Below are positions 1 to 4,778 of a DNA stretch of 28,404 nucleotides, piece by piece. The translations under genes were made by a program, and so were the position numbers. Each line of letters begins with the position of its first letter. The first letter of the stretch is position 1. The notes beneath the pieces were generated by a model. It made no database searches. It was given only the letters and a program-made list of their open reading frames with translations, and was not told where the DNA came from. This DNA comes from a virus, in the IMG/VR virus record IMGVR_UViG_3300046804_003913, positions 1-28,404 of that record, one strand, 5' to 3'.

Positions 1-1665
1 CTTACCATCCTTGCCGGGCACTTCTATTGCGGCTCCGGGCTTAATTGGATTGTCTGCTGTTGGCGCTGTTGCACTTAACTGTATATGCCAATCTTCGTTG
101 GCAACTGGTCGACTCAGACCAAAACTTTCAAGCCAGCCTGTTGGATTGTCTCGCGACCCAGCAAGCACGTTGATACCGTTCGATCCTTTTGAATTAATAT
201 CAATAGCCTGTCCACTCATGTGAGCACTTCCACGGCCACCACCAAGCGGAGGGGCAGGTTCGGCTACCATTTTACGTGTACGAGCAACATCGCCGCCGTT
301 CTCAGCTAGCTTTGCGTCCCAAAGCTGTTTTTGTTTTTCGTTGGTACGCACACCTGATGTGATACTCAACTTCTTGCCGGTGCGGTCCATAAAGGCCTGA
401 GCCATTGTCGCAACACGTTTTTCAAACACGCTACTGAAACCATCGAGGTTGACGCCTGAATCTGCTTTTGTTGCGACTGATGATAGAGACGAAGGTGTTG
501 AAGTTGTAGGCGCGGTTGCAACGGGCGTAGCTGCTTGAGGCTGCTCGGTAGGTATTGCTTGTTCACCTGTAGCACGAACTGGTGGCTTTGGTGCTGGTAT
601 GACTAGTGGAGGTGTTGGTTGTGTTGCAGCCGGCCCTGGCGCAGCGGTTTGCTCTGGCTTGCGTTTGACAGCATCGAGCTTGGTGCCTAGCACATCCTCA
701 GCTTCTTCAACAACTGAATCATAAAGTTCTCCGTATCGCTCATTACGCTCCGGATCCTTTGTGTCTACAACACCGTACACCTCCTCATATGTGTCTCGAA
801 CTGTGCTTGCGACAGTTAACGGTATCGATGTCAGAGGTCCCGCCAAGCCGCTCGCTGCTTCAATGCCAGCACCGAGCCAGTCGCCCTTCAGCAGCTTGCC
901 GACAGCAAATGCTGCTCCAACGGCCGCACCGACAAACGGAATTGATTTAGCACCCATTTTACCAATGGATGCAAGTAGTCTACGACGAGCAACGGCCTTA
1001 ATTGCAGCTTTCGCTGCCTTTGCCTTAGCAGCACCAATTTGCTTCTTTGCGAGCTGCTCAAACTCTTTTTTGGCTGCTGGGTTATTTTTCCAGTCCTTGC
1101 CATGCTTTTTTTGCATGGCTTTTTCAGCTTCAGTCTTGGCAGCTTTACCGGCCTTGTCAGTCTGCTTTTTGATCCGTTCTTTTTCTTTTTTATTATATTT
1201 CGGCTCTTTACCAGACGGTGGCTTCTTTGTTGGAATTTTTAGCTTATCAAAGATGCTATCAAAAAGACTGGCAGCATCATCTTCCTCTTTAACACCTTCC
1301 TGAAGTGCCGGTGCTTTCAATGAAGGAGGTTGAGGCGCCTTCTTTTCAATTTTCTGCTGTTCTTTTAGACCTTTTGTTGTTTCTTCTTCAGAAACGATTT
1401 GAGCATCCATCGCCTTGGCGAGAAGCTGCACGTTCATGGAAATCTGCGTAAACGCTTTTTCCATGTGGATTAGCGTTGTGTCTGTTTCTGTAATCTTTCC
1501 TGTGTTGAAGCGAATCTCTTTCACTTCTTCCTGGATACGTTTTTGTTCTTCAGCCTTTTCGCGGCGTATCCTCATCGTTTCGCCGATGATACCCAGATTG
1601 TCTTCAGCAGCTGTTCTGACGTTGGTACGTAGCTGCTCTTTAAACGTATCTGTAAACTGAGCCAT
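1..1665 (-). CDS. Tail protein with C-terminal M15 (VanY-like) peptidase domain, partial
   Basis: The frame is open from an ATG at 1665 to the window edge (555 codons, no stop), so the C-terminus is missing. Residues about 15-100 are charged and heptad-like (coiled coil). Residues about 150-230 are Lys/Ala-rich, about 235-285 hydrophobic, and about 333-400 a Pro/Ala/Thr-rich linker. From about residue 405 the sequence matches peptidase M15 (D-Ala-D-Ala carboxypeptidase or endopeptidase): SGVRT with R440, SAHMSGQAID with H482 and D489, and WH at 526-527. H482, D489 and H527 are the expected zinc ligands. The family cuts peptidoglycan cross-links or stem peptides. The start overlaps the upstream stop as TAATG, with an AGGG site before it, implying coupled translation. 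Its place after the gp26/51 chaperone and another coiled-coil protein suggests a tape-measure or hub protein carrying a wall-cutting domain. The domain call is firm; the structural role is inferred. Confidence 0.85.
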   Translation of the reverse strand, partial: MAQFTDTFKEQLRTNVRTAAEDNLGIIGETMRIRREKAEEQKRIQEEVKEIRFNTGKITETDTTLIHMEKAFTQISMNVQLLAKAMDAQIVSEEETTKGLKEQQKIEKKAPQPPSLKAPALQEGVKEEDDAASLFDSIFDKLKIPTKKPPSGKEPKYNKKEKERIKKQTDKAGKAAKTEAEKAMQKKHGKDWKNNPAAKKEFEQLAKKQIGAAKAKAAKAAIKAVARRRLLASIGKMGAKSIPFVGAAVGAAFAVGKLLKGDWLGAGIEAASGLAGPLTSIPLTVASTVRDTYEEVYGVVDTKDPERNERYGELYDSVVEEAEDVLGTKLDAVKRKPEQTAAPGPAATQPTPPLVIPAPKPPVRATGEQAIPTEQPQAATPVATAPTTSTPSSLSSVATKADSGVNLDGFSSVFEKRVATMAQAFMDRTGKKLSITSGVRTNEKQKQLWDAKLAENGGDVARTRKMVAEPAPPLGGGRGSAHMSGQAIDINSKGSNGINVLAGSRDNPTGWLESFGLSRPVANEDWHIQLSATAPTADNPIKPGAAIEVPGKDGK

Positions 1666-3050
1666 TACATACCAGCCCTAAAAACAGTTCCATTGTCTAA
1701 CGAACCACGGTCAGCAATAGGCGACGGCATTTGCATTGGTTGCTGTGTTAGTTGCGACGTCATATCGTTTGTGCTGCTTGACACCTGAGGCTCTTGAGAT
1801 TTAGGTTCACTTGCAGCAGCAACCTCTGTGCTGAGTTGGCCAACCTCAGCACCTGTATCTGGGGCTTGGGGAACAGGCTCCGCAGACGGTGGTGCGACCA
1901 TGCTTGATGGGCTAGATGGCTGTGCAGGCGCTGAAGGAGGCGGTGCTTGTGTTGATGCTGACGACCCCGCTGCTTGTGGTTGTGGCTGAGGTGTTGATGC
2001 TGGTTGCGCGGCCTCTGCCTGCTTCAAACCTTCTTCCTGAATACTGATCAAATCCTCAAGCTGCTTTTTACGAACAGGATCCTTTTCGACAGCTGCCTGC
2101 TGCTTTAAGTTTTCAATCGTTAGCTTGAAGGCTTGTATTGCTGGATTTTCTGTACTCGACGGCGGCGGTGCAGTAGAAGCAGGAGCTGACGTTGCAGCAA
2201 CGGATTCAGCGGATGTACGCTGCACACTTTCATACACCTGAGCTTCTTGCTGAGAAGGTTCTGGTGGTGCTGCTTGAGCAGTCATGAATGATGCTGGAGA
2301 GGAGGACGTGCTGGATGATGTTTCAGGCGCTGGTGGTGCTGACGAGACGTTGACATTAACCTGCTGTGCACCACTCGTCGATTGATCAGCTGTTTTTTGA
2401 TCAGCCTCTTCTGTTGTCTGGTCTCCCTGGTCCCCCTGATCACCACCTTCTTGCTCACTCGTTGATCGTGAGGCAGCGTAAATAGCTCCAAGACCTGCCG
2501 CTGCTCCAGCAGTACCCAGCAGACCCGCCGCCATAAGCCCAGCCCCGACAAGAGCAAACTTACGCAACGCCTTGCCCAGCAACTTTTTGGTAGATCCTAT
2601 CGATCCCAATAGTTTGGACATCATGCCCTTGTCTTTTTCTTCTGGGGATTGTGGTGCTGTGCCTGCAACAGCTGGTCCCGCAACCTTGACGGCTGCGTTT
2701 TCAGATGATGCTTCTTCCTGTTCCGCTGCCTGACGATCCATTCGTTCTTTTTGTGCACGCCGTGCTTCTTCCATTGAAGCAACGTGTTTGCTCCACACAC
2801 CAGCAATGTTGTAAATGTTGTCGGCTATGTTCAGGACGACAGCTTCAATGCGGTGTAGAGTTGCATTGACTTTGTCTTGTTCTGCTGATTGTTCTTTGAG
2901 GGCATCGCCGACTTGTGTGTCACGCTCCTCACCGGCAAACTTCTTTTCAAACGCCTTGCCCAGCGCCGATCCTACAATCCCGCTTCCAAAAACAGCTTTG
3001 CTGACTTTTTTGATTGCGGTCTTTTTTAAATCCGCGCCGAATGTTGCCAT
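1665..3050 (-). CDS. Coiled-coil tail protein with hydrophobic segment, tape-measure candidate
   Basis: This 461-residue protein is not recognised by motif. Residues 1-115 are mostly helical and charged, with a heptad-like stretch at about 55-115. Residues 161-193 form a strongly hydrophobic Ala/Gly/Leu stretch. Residues 195-300 are low-complexity (Gln, Asp, Ser, Thr, Pro). A second helical stretch spans about 300-350, followed by a Pro/Ser/Ala-rich tail. Coiled coil plus a membrane-like segment, placed directly after the tail chaperone pair gp26/51, is what tape-measure genes look like in many tailed phages; T4 gp29 is 590 residues. The start lies 3 nt after the gp51-frame stop, and the end overlaps the M15 protein start by one base. 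The general architecture resembles the M15 protein, so the two may be old paralogues or may share the role. Tape measure is an inference from context. Confidence 0.6.
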   Translation of the reverse strand: MATFGADLKKTAIKKVSKAVFGSGIVGSALGKAFEKKFAGEERDTQVGDALKEQSAEQDKVNATLHRIEAVVLNIADNIYNIAGVWSKHVASMEEARRAQKERMDRQAAEQEEASSENAAVKVAGPAVAGTAPQSPEEKDKGMMSKLLGSIGSTKKLLGKALRKFALVGAGLMAAGLLGTAGAAAGLGAIYAASRSTSEQEGGDQGDQGDQTTEEADQKTADQSTSGAQQVNVNVSSAPPAPETSSSTSSSPASFMTAQAAPPEPSQQEAQVYESVQRTSAESVAATSAPASTAPPPSSTENPAIQAFKLTIENLKQQAAVEKDPVRKKQLEDLISIQEEGLKQAEAAQPASTPQPQPQAAGSSASTQAPPPSAPAQPSSPSSMVAPPSAEPVPQAPDTGAEVGQLSTEVAAASEPKSQEPQVSSSTNDMTSQLTQQPMQMPSPIADRGSLDNGTVFRAGM

Positions 3051-3053
3051 GTA

Positions 3054-3233
3054 TTATCTCTGCGCTAGGCGCTGTTGTTCTTCTGTTAGGTAATCCTTCA
3101 ACATATCAACATACAAGTCACGTTCGTAAGGATAAAGATTTTCAAGCTCAGTAATCGAATATTTATGGTGCTGAACCATACTGAACAAAAGCGTGTAGTA
3201 GTTCGGTAGGGTGTTATGGCTCAGCGCAACGTA
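3054..3233 (-). CDS. gp51: gp51-like C-terminal extension of gp26, read by -1 frameshift
   Basis: In the -1 frame after the T run at 3233-3239, 59 sense codons follow before TAA at 3056-3054. They contain a stretch typical of the small gp51-like proteins of T4-related phages, MVQHHKYSITELENLYPYE, followed by a helical tail. The only internal ATG (3179-3177) would give just 41 residues and would leave out the upstream residues NTLPNYYTLFS, which look like part of the same domain. No Shine-Dalgarno sequence precedes that ATG. Frameshifting would give a gp26-gp51 fusion of about 292 residues beside the normal 236-residue gp26. Two-frame tail chaperones made this way lie just before the tape measure in many tailed phages (lambda G and GT). 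The frame, length and site are seen; actual use of the frameshift is inferred. Confidence 0.72.
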   Translation of the reverse strand, partial: YVALSHNTLPNYYTLLFSMVQHHKYSITELENLYPYERDLYVDMLKDYLTEEQQRLAQR

Positions 3234-3931
3234 AAAAAATCAGTTAACGAGCGAAGAGTAATATCAACCTTCTTGCCATTAGAGTTAGTGTATGATACTG
3301 TGTGCTCTAGGCGTGGCATTGCTTCTATAAACTTTTGAATGGCTTGATATGTCTTTACATCAAGTGAGTCAATGAACTCTTTAACCTCGTCGCGTGTGAA
3401 ATCTGATGTCTTGTACACGTTATCACCCTGGTACACGCACTCAATGCATGCTTCCATAATAGCGAAGTTGAAGTCGACGGGATCGGTGATTTTCTCAACT
3501 GTGTTCATAATGTCGAGTTGAGGGTACTTCAGCACAATGCCTGACTCACCAGAGATTTCAATTTTATTCTGAACGTCTGTCTGCTCTGTAACCTCAACCT
3601 CGTCGAGATTGACCGTCACCTCGTAAATCTGATTGTCCTCATTGTCTCTATACGAAAGACTAACAATGTTTTGAACCGACTTAGCACGTAGCTTCACGAA
3701 AAAGTATTCGAGGTCAAACGTGGTGAACTTCTCTACGTTGACGTTTGCGTCTGTAATGCAGTTGGTGATGACCTGCTTGATAGCACGAATAATGTCGGTT
3801 TGATCGTCGCTCGACTGAGCAATGAGCAATAGTTTTTCTTCTTTGACAAGAAACGGTCTAAAGTGAATCTTTTGTTTTGTCGAAGGAAGTGTGAGAGAAA
3901 ATGTAGGATGCTGTATAACAGGTAGGCCCAT
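3221..3931 (-). CDS. gp26: gp26-like baseplate hub assembly protein / tail chaperone
   Basis: This 236-residue protein belongs with the T4 baseplate protein family (T4 gp26 is 208 residues). The opening MGLPVIQHPTFSLTLPST, followed by a strand-rich FRPFLVKEEKLLLIA segment and a region of acidic loops, is characteristic. The C-terminal half has FTRDEVKEFIDSLD and a helix ending in SLTDFF. In T4, gp26 takes part in hub assembly. The start is preceded by GAGG nine bases upstream, and a 22-nt gap separates it from gp54. Its last codons contain the frameshift heptamer that would fuse it to the gp51-like frame, which suggests a role as a tape-measure chaperone similar to lambda G. Family assignment is strong; the chaperone role is inferred. 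Confidence 0.85.
   Translation of the reverse strand: MGLPVIQHPTFSLTLPSTKQKIHFRPFLVKEEKLLLIAQSSDDQTDIIRAIKQVITNCITDANVNVEKFTTFDLEYFFVKLRAKSVQNIVSLSYRDNEDNQIYEVTVNLDEVEVTEQTDVQNKIEISGESGIVLKYPQLDIMNTVEKITDPVDFNFAIMEACIECVYQGDNVYKTSDFTRDEVKEFIDSLDVKTYQAIQKFIEAMPRLEHTVSYTNSNGKKVDITLRSLTDFFTLR
3233..3239 (-). promoter_or_regulatory. Slippery heptamer for -1 frameshift (T TTT TTT)
   Basis: On the minus strand the gp26 codons at the end read GAT TTT TTT ACG TTG CGC TGA. The seven T residues fall as T TTT TTT in the zero frame, the X XXY YYZ phase needed for tandem -1 slippage. Both tRNAs would re-pair perfectly after the slip. The zero frame ends four codons later, while the -1 frame opens into the gp51-like sequence. 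I saw no convincing pseudoknot downstream, so stimulators are undefined. Polymerase slippage on the run would be an alternative way to reach the same frame. Confidence 0.7.
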
Positions 3932-3953: not shown

Positions 3954-4778
3954 TTAAAAACCACGGCGAATGTTTTGTACTGTTGTGACGGAGCTCAATG
4001 CATCTTGAACGTTTCTCGGACGTTTTATTGATGCCAGTGTTTGAACGGCTGTTCCAATCTTGACGAGCTTCTGTAGTGTTGAAAGCCCCTTCAATCCACC
4101 TTTCGTCAATTGAACATCTTTGCTTGCACTGACCAGTACAGACTGCAGATACTCGAACTGTACGCTAAACTGCATCATAGACGACTCGGACCAGTTGAGA
4201 TCGACCTCAGCGACGTTGATAGGAAACGCCTCTTTCAGTTGATACTCAAACACTGGCGTGCCTTGTTCGTTGAATGTTGTTATTGTTATAGTACAACGGT
4301 ACTGATCTTTAAACTCTACCTCATAGGCAGAAAGACCGTTTGATGATACCTGAGTACTTGCAACGTCGTAGTCGCCACGCACGATGCTCTGCAGCCAGGT
4401 GTAGAAAAACTTGTATATCTCTCCCTTACCGTCACCGATAAACTTTATCGTCGTGTTGTTGGTTTGGATGGAGTATGGAACTTTTTCGTTGGGTCCAATG
4501 CCGTAGCGCTTTAGGTCCGCTGTTTGAATAAACAGGCCGGGAAGTTGCGCACCCTCAGCGTATAATGAAATCTTTTGTGGAATCTTACTACCGCTGAGAA
4601 CCTTCGGAGCTGTGATTGTCACCTCAAATAGGTTTGTACGAGCAACGGAGTTGGCACGTATCTCAGAGATGAAGTTGTTTAGCTTACCGGATGTTCCACC
4701 TGCTGGCTTTGAGCCGAACAGCGATGAAAGGGCCGACACGGTGCCGACTGCATTCATTGCTGTGTTGAGAATTCCCAT
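3954..4778 (-). CDS. gp54: gp54-like baseplate tail-tube initiator
   Basis: This 274-residue protein (T4 gp54: 320) has a tail-tube fold signature: an N-terminal Ala/Gly/Ser-rich helix, then RTNLFEVTITAPKVL at about 47-61, GAQLPGLFIQ, a central strand-rich stretch with YKFFYTWLQSIV, and FEYQLKEAFPINVAEVDLNW followed by FSVQFEYLQS. These are shared by tube proteins (gp19) and the tube-initiating gp54. In T4, gp54 sits on the hub and, with gp48, forms the platform where the gp19 tube polymerises. The start overlaps the upstream stop as TAATG, with AGGATGG upstream as a ribosome site. The other tube-like protein nearby, gp48, is the first gene of the divergent operon. The alternative, gp19 itself, is less likely given the length and the baseplate context. 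Confidence 0.75.
   Translation of the reverse strand: MGILNTAMNAVGTVSALSSLFGSKPAGGTSGKLNNFISEIRANSVARTNLFEVTITAPKVLSGSKIPQKISLYAEGAQLPGLFIQTADLKRYGIGPNEKVPYSIQTNNTTIKFIGDGKGEIYKFFYTWLQSIVRGDYDVASTQVSSNGLSAYEVEFKDQYRCTITITTFNEQGTPVFEYQLKEAFPINVAEVDLNWSESSMMQFSVQFEYLQSVLVSASKDVQLTKGGLKGLSTLQKLVKIGTAVQTLASIKRPRNVQDALSSVTTVQNIRRGF

Follow-up and report, generated by a model that had tools for sequence, protein, structure and literature searches.

In the window, that is, the whole analysed stretch of 28,404 bases from a virus record (IMGVR_UViG_3300046804_003913), gp26 and the gp51 domain that follows it in the –1 frame are, judging by the comparison of sequences, very probably a single gene that yields two proteins, a short and a long tail assembly chaperone, related to each other by a –1 programmed frameshift. 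The frameshift reading draws its support from a universal heptamer, the invariable –1 position of gp51, third-position-biased conservation, a conserved stem and a chaperone fold. The conserved heptamer, the frame and the RNA stem are directly seen in the sequence; the chaperone-like fold is predicted. A short/long pair of this kind had been proposed for gp26 and gp51 in the first-pass annotation of the same DNA, and all comparative tests, whether of sequence or of the predicted fold, speak for it.

The mechanism that we infer comprises slippage itself, its efficiency, a role for the stem and a role in tail assembly. The majority of ribosomes would stop at the TGA codon and release gp26, the short chaperone (TAC-N). 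In a minority of cases the ribosome would pause at the stem beginning 4–7 nt downstream of the slippery run, step back one base so that both Phe codons re-pair on T_TTT_TTT, and continue reading in the –1 frame, resulting in a gp26–gp51 protein (TAC-NC). By analogy with gpG/gpGT of lambda, the mixture of short and long forms may coat the tape-measure protein and recruit tail tube subunits in the course of assembly.

The gp26–gp51 junction in the window and its relatives

The gp26 gene of the window (3221–3931, minus strand; 236 aa, with the TGA stop at 3221–3223) matches the Pfam family T4_baseplate (PF12322, E 4.5e-55) and the baseplate hub family phrog_150 (E 6.4e-59). On the minus strand its 3′ end reads TTA ACT GAT TTT TTT ACG TTG CGC TGA; the slippery heptamer T_TTT_TTT (3233–3239, minus strand), which is kept across the relatives examined, is separated from the stop by three sense codons, ACG TTG CGC. 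Read from the last T of the run, the –1 frame, YVALSHNTLPNYYTLLFSMVQHHKYSITELENLYPYERDLYVDMLKDYLTEEQQRLAQR, stays open for 59 codons (3057–3233) up to a TAA at 3054–3056. It holds the gp51 domain (TAC-C; 3054–3233, minus strand), the putative C-terminal part of a gp26–gp51 fusion, and is matched from residue 2 on by phrog_634, ‘baseplate hub assembly catalyst’ (gp51; E 7.4e-22). The matches to PF12322 and phrog_634 place the two frames in the families of T4 gp26 and gp51. The first candidate starts in the –1 frame are a TTG at residue 15 and an ATG at residue 18, both within the conserved domain, and inspection by eye revealed no Shine–Dalgarno sequence for either of them. The first-pass annotation had described seven T residues phased as T TTT TTT near the gp26 stop, a –1 frame open for 59 codons, gp51-like residues ahead of any usable start and the lack of a ribosome site for that frame; all these sequence details proved accurate.

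We compared the window with 80 environmental relatives and with 12 isolate genomes that carry an adjoining gp26–gp51 pair, the identity of their gp26 to the window gene ranging from 71% down to about 25%. In every relative examined (>90 loci) the gp26 frame ends with T_TTT_TT(T/C), or once with TTG as the last codon, and in each locus long enough to show it, gp51 is in the –1 frame. No exception to this relation of heptamer and –1 frame was found among the >90 loci; L061, whose locus contains an early stop, deviates only in appearance, as AAT TTT TTC is present at the true gp26 end. The sole relative with T_TTT_TTG rather than T_TTT_TTY is Rhizobium phage AF3 (L092, around 2985–2998). The distance from the heptamer to the gp26 stop differs among relatives and amounts to 3, 6, 9, 24 or 27 nt. 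The heptamer is present at 28/28 distinct junction peptide contexts, compared to 20 of the 229 Phe-Phe dipeptides located elsewhere in the same loci (8.7%), an enrichment whose nominal probability is not to be taken literally because the sequences are related. Frameshifting had been expected to leave a conserved slippery heptamer in homologous gp26/gp51 pairs, and such a heptamer is what we find. Homologues in which gp51 has its own ATG and the slippery run is missing, the pattern named as evidence against the proposal, were not seen: the starts vary and the run is constant.

Two public records, those of Synechococcus virus S-PRM1 (L093, 2998–3186) and Aeromonas phage AS-szw (L089, 3699–3866), contain the gp51 domain in the –1 frame without annotating it.

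The –1 frame is conserved as a continuation of gp26. In the window clade (23 members) the peptide L(S/I/N)HN..xNYY...F(S/A)(M/L)(V/I)QHHKYS begins directly at the junction. Over the 18 codons that precede the first shared ATG, pairwise differences within this clade number 1147, 622 and 1866 at codon positions 1, 2 and 3, respectively; the third-position excess indicates that the –1 frame evolves as protein ahead of that ATG. In the 22 close relatives, conservation extends from the junction on, and there are no usable starts before residue 8–18. Like the second ORF of frameshifted chaperones, the gp51 ORF is in –1, runs open through the junction and is conserved ahead of any start.

The downstream RNA stem and competing explanations

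In the window clade, a stem of 9–12 bp begins 4–7 nt after the heptamer. Its 5′ arm in the window, UGCGCUGAGCCA (3217–3228, minus strand), was delineated by pairing and by a synonymous-recoding test; it pairs with the Val-Gln-His-His codons of gp51 about 40 nt further on, within which the 3′ arm is located, UGGUUCAGCACCA (3166–3178, minus strand). Over 17 sequences of the clade, 97% of helix cells are paired, and no compensatory (double) changes were found in the stem in these sequences. For the recoding test, the –1 frame was recoded synonymously 150 times at random and each resulting fold was compared with the native one, with windows inside gp26 serving as controls. The native stem beat 150/150 recodings in 14/14 clade representatives (mean z –4.6), against a mean z of –0.25 for the gp26 control windows; over 33 representatives the test gave p = 9e-12. 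Because there is no covariation within the clade, support for the stem comes from its invariance and from the recoding test. An RNA structure about 5–9 nt downstream, as expected of –1 frameshift sites, is found here in terms of both presence and synonymous constraint. An Rfam search returned no match except a chance one to a snoRNA on the opposite strand.

In L019, a member of the clade, folding remains strong but uses another 3′ arm. Further groups form stems of their own at this position (e.g. L028, L036, L082, L086 and L091), and in the distant relatives L026, L041, L088 and L092 any such stem is weak or missing. On the simplest reading, the stem probably stimulates slippage. We lean slightly towards the wider view that the long-range, strongly conserved stem (3217–3228/3166–3178) is an undescribed stimulator of chaperone frameshifting in this clade, that other clades employ other stems and keep the heptamer, the ratio of products being tuned clade by clade, and that the T4 branch uses two genes.

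Inspection by eye also revealed a Shine–Dalgarno-like GGAGGG/GAAGGG located 8–14 nt upstream of the heptamer in many cyanophage-type relatives (L029, L036, L046, L082), an element that may be likened to the one at the dnaX frameshift site. In the window clade no such element is evident by eye upstream of the heptamer, and there is a stronger stem instead.

The same arrangement could arise if gp51 were a separate small protein, translated through reinitiation or from a start near the gp26 stop, with the T run being incidental. In many relatives a GTG or ATG does overlap the stop of gp26, and the annotation lists gp51 as a gene of its own. Within the cyanophage-type relatives, the overlapping ATG is found in some and is absent from others; where it exists, gp51 may be translated independently, but its coming and going indicates that start codons are not what selection keeps. 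The window clade contains no ATG before residue 18, only scattered GTG and TTG codons, none of them shared, and the shared ATG at residue 18 is itself inside the conserved domain and is lacking, for instance, in L019, L020 and L023. In relatives such as L037, L044 and L049 there is no start until +50. Since start codons are not conserved, whereas the heptamer is, we consider a separately initiated gp51 improbable.

Two further explanations concern the T run itself. A 7-base homopolymer on a metagenome contig might reflect a sequencing or assembly error, in which case gp26–gp51 would be a single uninterrupted ORF. The same frame relation, however, recurs in independent contigs and in isolate genomes, many of them with TTTTTTC; since these TTTTTTC relatives show identical frames, the error was rejected, and we give it next to no probability. 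Seven T residues also form a possible site of transcriptional slippage, so the –1 product could come from slipping of RNA polymerase rather than of the ribosome. Yet at 45 of the 64 distinct junctions there are only six T followed by C, and six T are short for transcriptional slippage. The T_TTT_TTY phase and the downstream stem, moreover, are requirements of ribosomal slippage. We regard the polymerase as a very improbable source of the –1 product and retain ribosomal frameshifting as the preferred reading.

The predicted gp26 fold and the neighbouring genes

An AlphaFold2 model of gp26 was built with 21 related sequences and has a mean pLDDT of 83. The best PDB matches of model residues 1–95 were 3fgx (Z 8.3), 2ob9 (Z 7.5) and 3klu (Z 7.0), with the next at 3.8; Z values of 7–8 are moderate and common as a best value, and the match is limited to the N-terminal 95 residues. 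These three structures, RBSTP2171 (3fgx), HK97 gp13 (2ob9) and YqbN (3klu), have been grouped into a single chaperone family. For the N-terminal domain of gp26, the model predicts a fold similar to that of tail assembly chaperones with known structures. Compared to these proteins, gp26 has about 140 further residues, and identity is only 7–10%. Foldseek alone yielded no PDB match at E ≤ 0.001, with 2ob9 ranking second (probability 0.72), and the gp26 profile searched against sequences of solved structures gave nothing meaningful.

Upstream of gp26 lies a gene of the tail tube family (gp19/gp54-like; 3954–4778, minus strand; phrog_45, E 9e-37; PF06841, E 5e-09). The next gene downstream of gp51 (1665–3050, minus strand) encodes 461 aa and is a candidate tape-measure or tape-measure-like gene by position and character: its N and C ends are conserved, and its middle is variable, Ala/Ser/Pro-rich and has a hydrophobic segment. 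Homologues at the same place in relatives are 393–623 aa long; no Pfam or PHROG family matched the 461-aa protein. It is followed by a gene of at least 555 aa that runs off the window (1–1665, minus strand); its product, which may be a tape-measure or hub protein, carries a VanY/M15 peptidase-like domain at the C terminus (PF02557, E 3.7e-06; phrog_23178 peptidase, E 3e-08). In BLAST, neither of the two downstream ORFs significantly matched T4 gp29 or neighbouring genes of named phages. The annotation of Sinorhizobium phage phiM12 notes a similarity to tape measures for the gene at the corresponding place. The tape-measure character initially ascribed to the downstream genes is thus plausible, given the variable length and the low-complexity middle, but a match to a tape-measure family was not obtained.

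The first ~105 residues encoded by 1–1665 are weakly similar to relatives of the 1665–3050 gene (E 0.006–0.05); going by sequence, the two consecutive genes after gp51 might be paralogues. The window as a whole bears a T4-like baseplate module, whose genes include members of the gp48, gp53, gp5, gp25 and gp6 families. The nearest counterparts of its gp6 are those of Sinorhizobium phages, Stenotrophomonas phage DLP6 and Caulobacter phage Cr30 (38–40% identity).

Relation to known tail assembly chaperones

Both lambda gpG/gpGT and P2 gpE/E+E′ share with the arrangement proposed for the window a short ORF, a –1 slip at its 3′ end, a long C-terminal extension and a position ahead of tape-measure-type genes, which in the window are candidates. 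Their heptamers differ from the T_TTT_TTT of the window: lambda has G_GGA_AAG, and P2 gpE has T_TTT_TTG, as in Rhizobium phage AF3.

T4 offers an independent line of evidence. T4 gp26 (gene 26; L087, 5803–6429) corresponds to the short form: like gp26 of the window, it belongs to PF12322, and it ends with GLKEFFELL. In T4 gp51 (gene 51; L087, 6480–7229), a T4_baseplate domain (PF12322, E 3.9e-52) precedes the gp51 domain (phrog_634, E 1.2e-23). Both T4 proteins are thus members of PF12322, and gp51 adds its C-terminal domain where other phages frameshift. Unlike in the window, the two forms are encoded in T4 by separate, divergently oriented genes, without a frameshift. As T4 gp51 is a fused long form, a pre-fused protein made of a gp26-like part and gp51 does occur in nature, which is expected if the gp26–gp51 fusion is the functional long form.

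The abstract of a 2022 study by Vladimirov and co-authors reportedly mentions genes 26 and 51 of T4 and describes frameshifting as kept in several T4-like groups. A frameshifted chaperone assignment for T4-like phages is cited as already published (Vladimirov et al. 2022, cited in PMC10885494 and PMC12846349). The PRFect paper says of this work that some T4-like phages have a short gene and a separate fused long gene, without frameshifting (PMC10885494), and a 2025 paper citing it states that TAC-N genes of T4-like phages carry poly-T –1 slippery sequences (PMC12846349). As far as these citing passages describe it, that system agrees with the window both in the genes involved (26/51 homologues) and in the notion of a chaperone that exists in two lengths. 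The environmental clade and the downstream stem may lie outside the published work; the mechanism itself having been reported, this clade and its conserved stem are apparently what is novel in the present analysis.

A large environmental group confirms that genes 26 and 51, classically assigned to T4 hub assembly, are the counterparts of the frameshifted tail assembly chaperones found in other phages with long tails. It follows that in many genomes of cyanophages and related phages the gp51 frame has been either overlooked or mistaken for a gene of its own. The defined RNA stem provides an entry point to the question of how phages set the short-to-long ratio.
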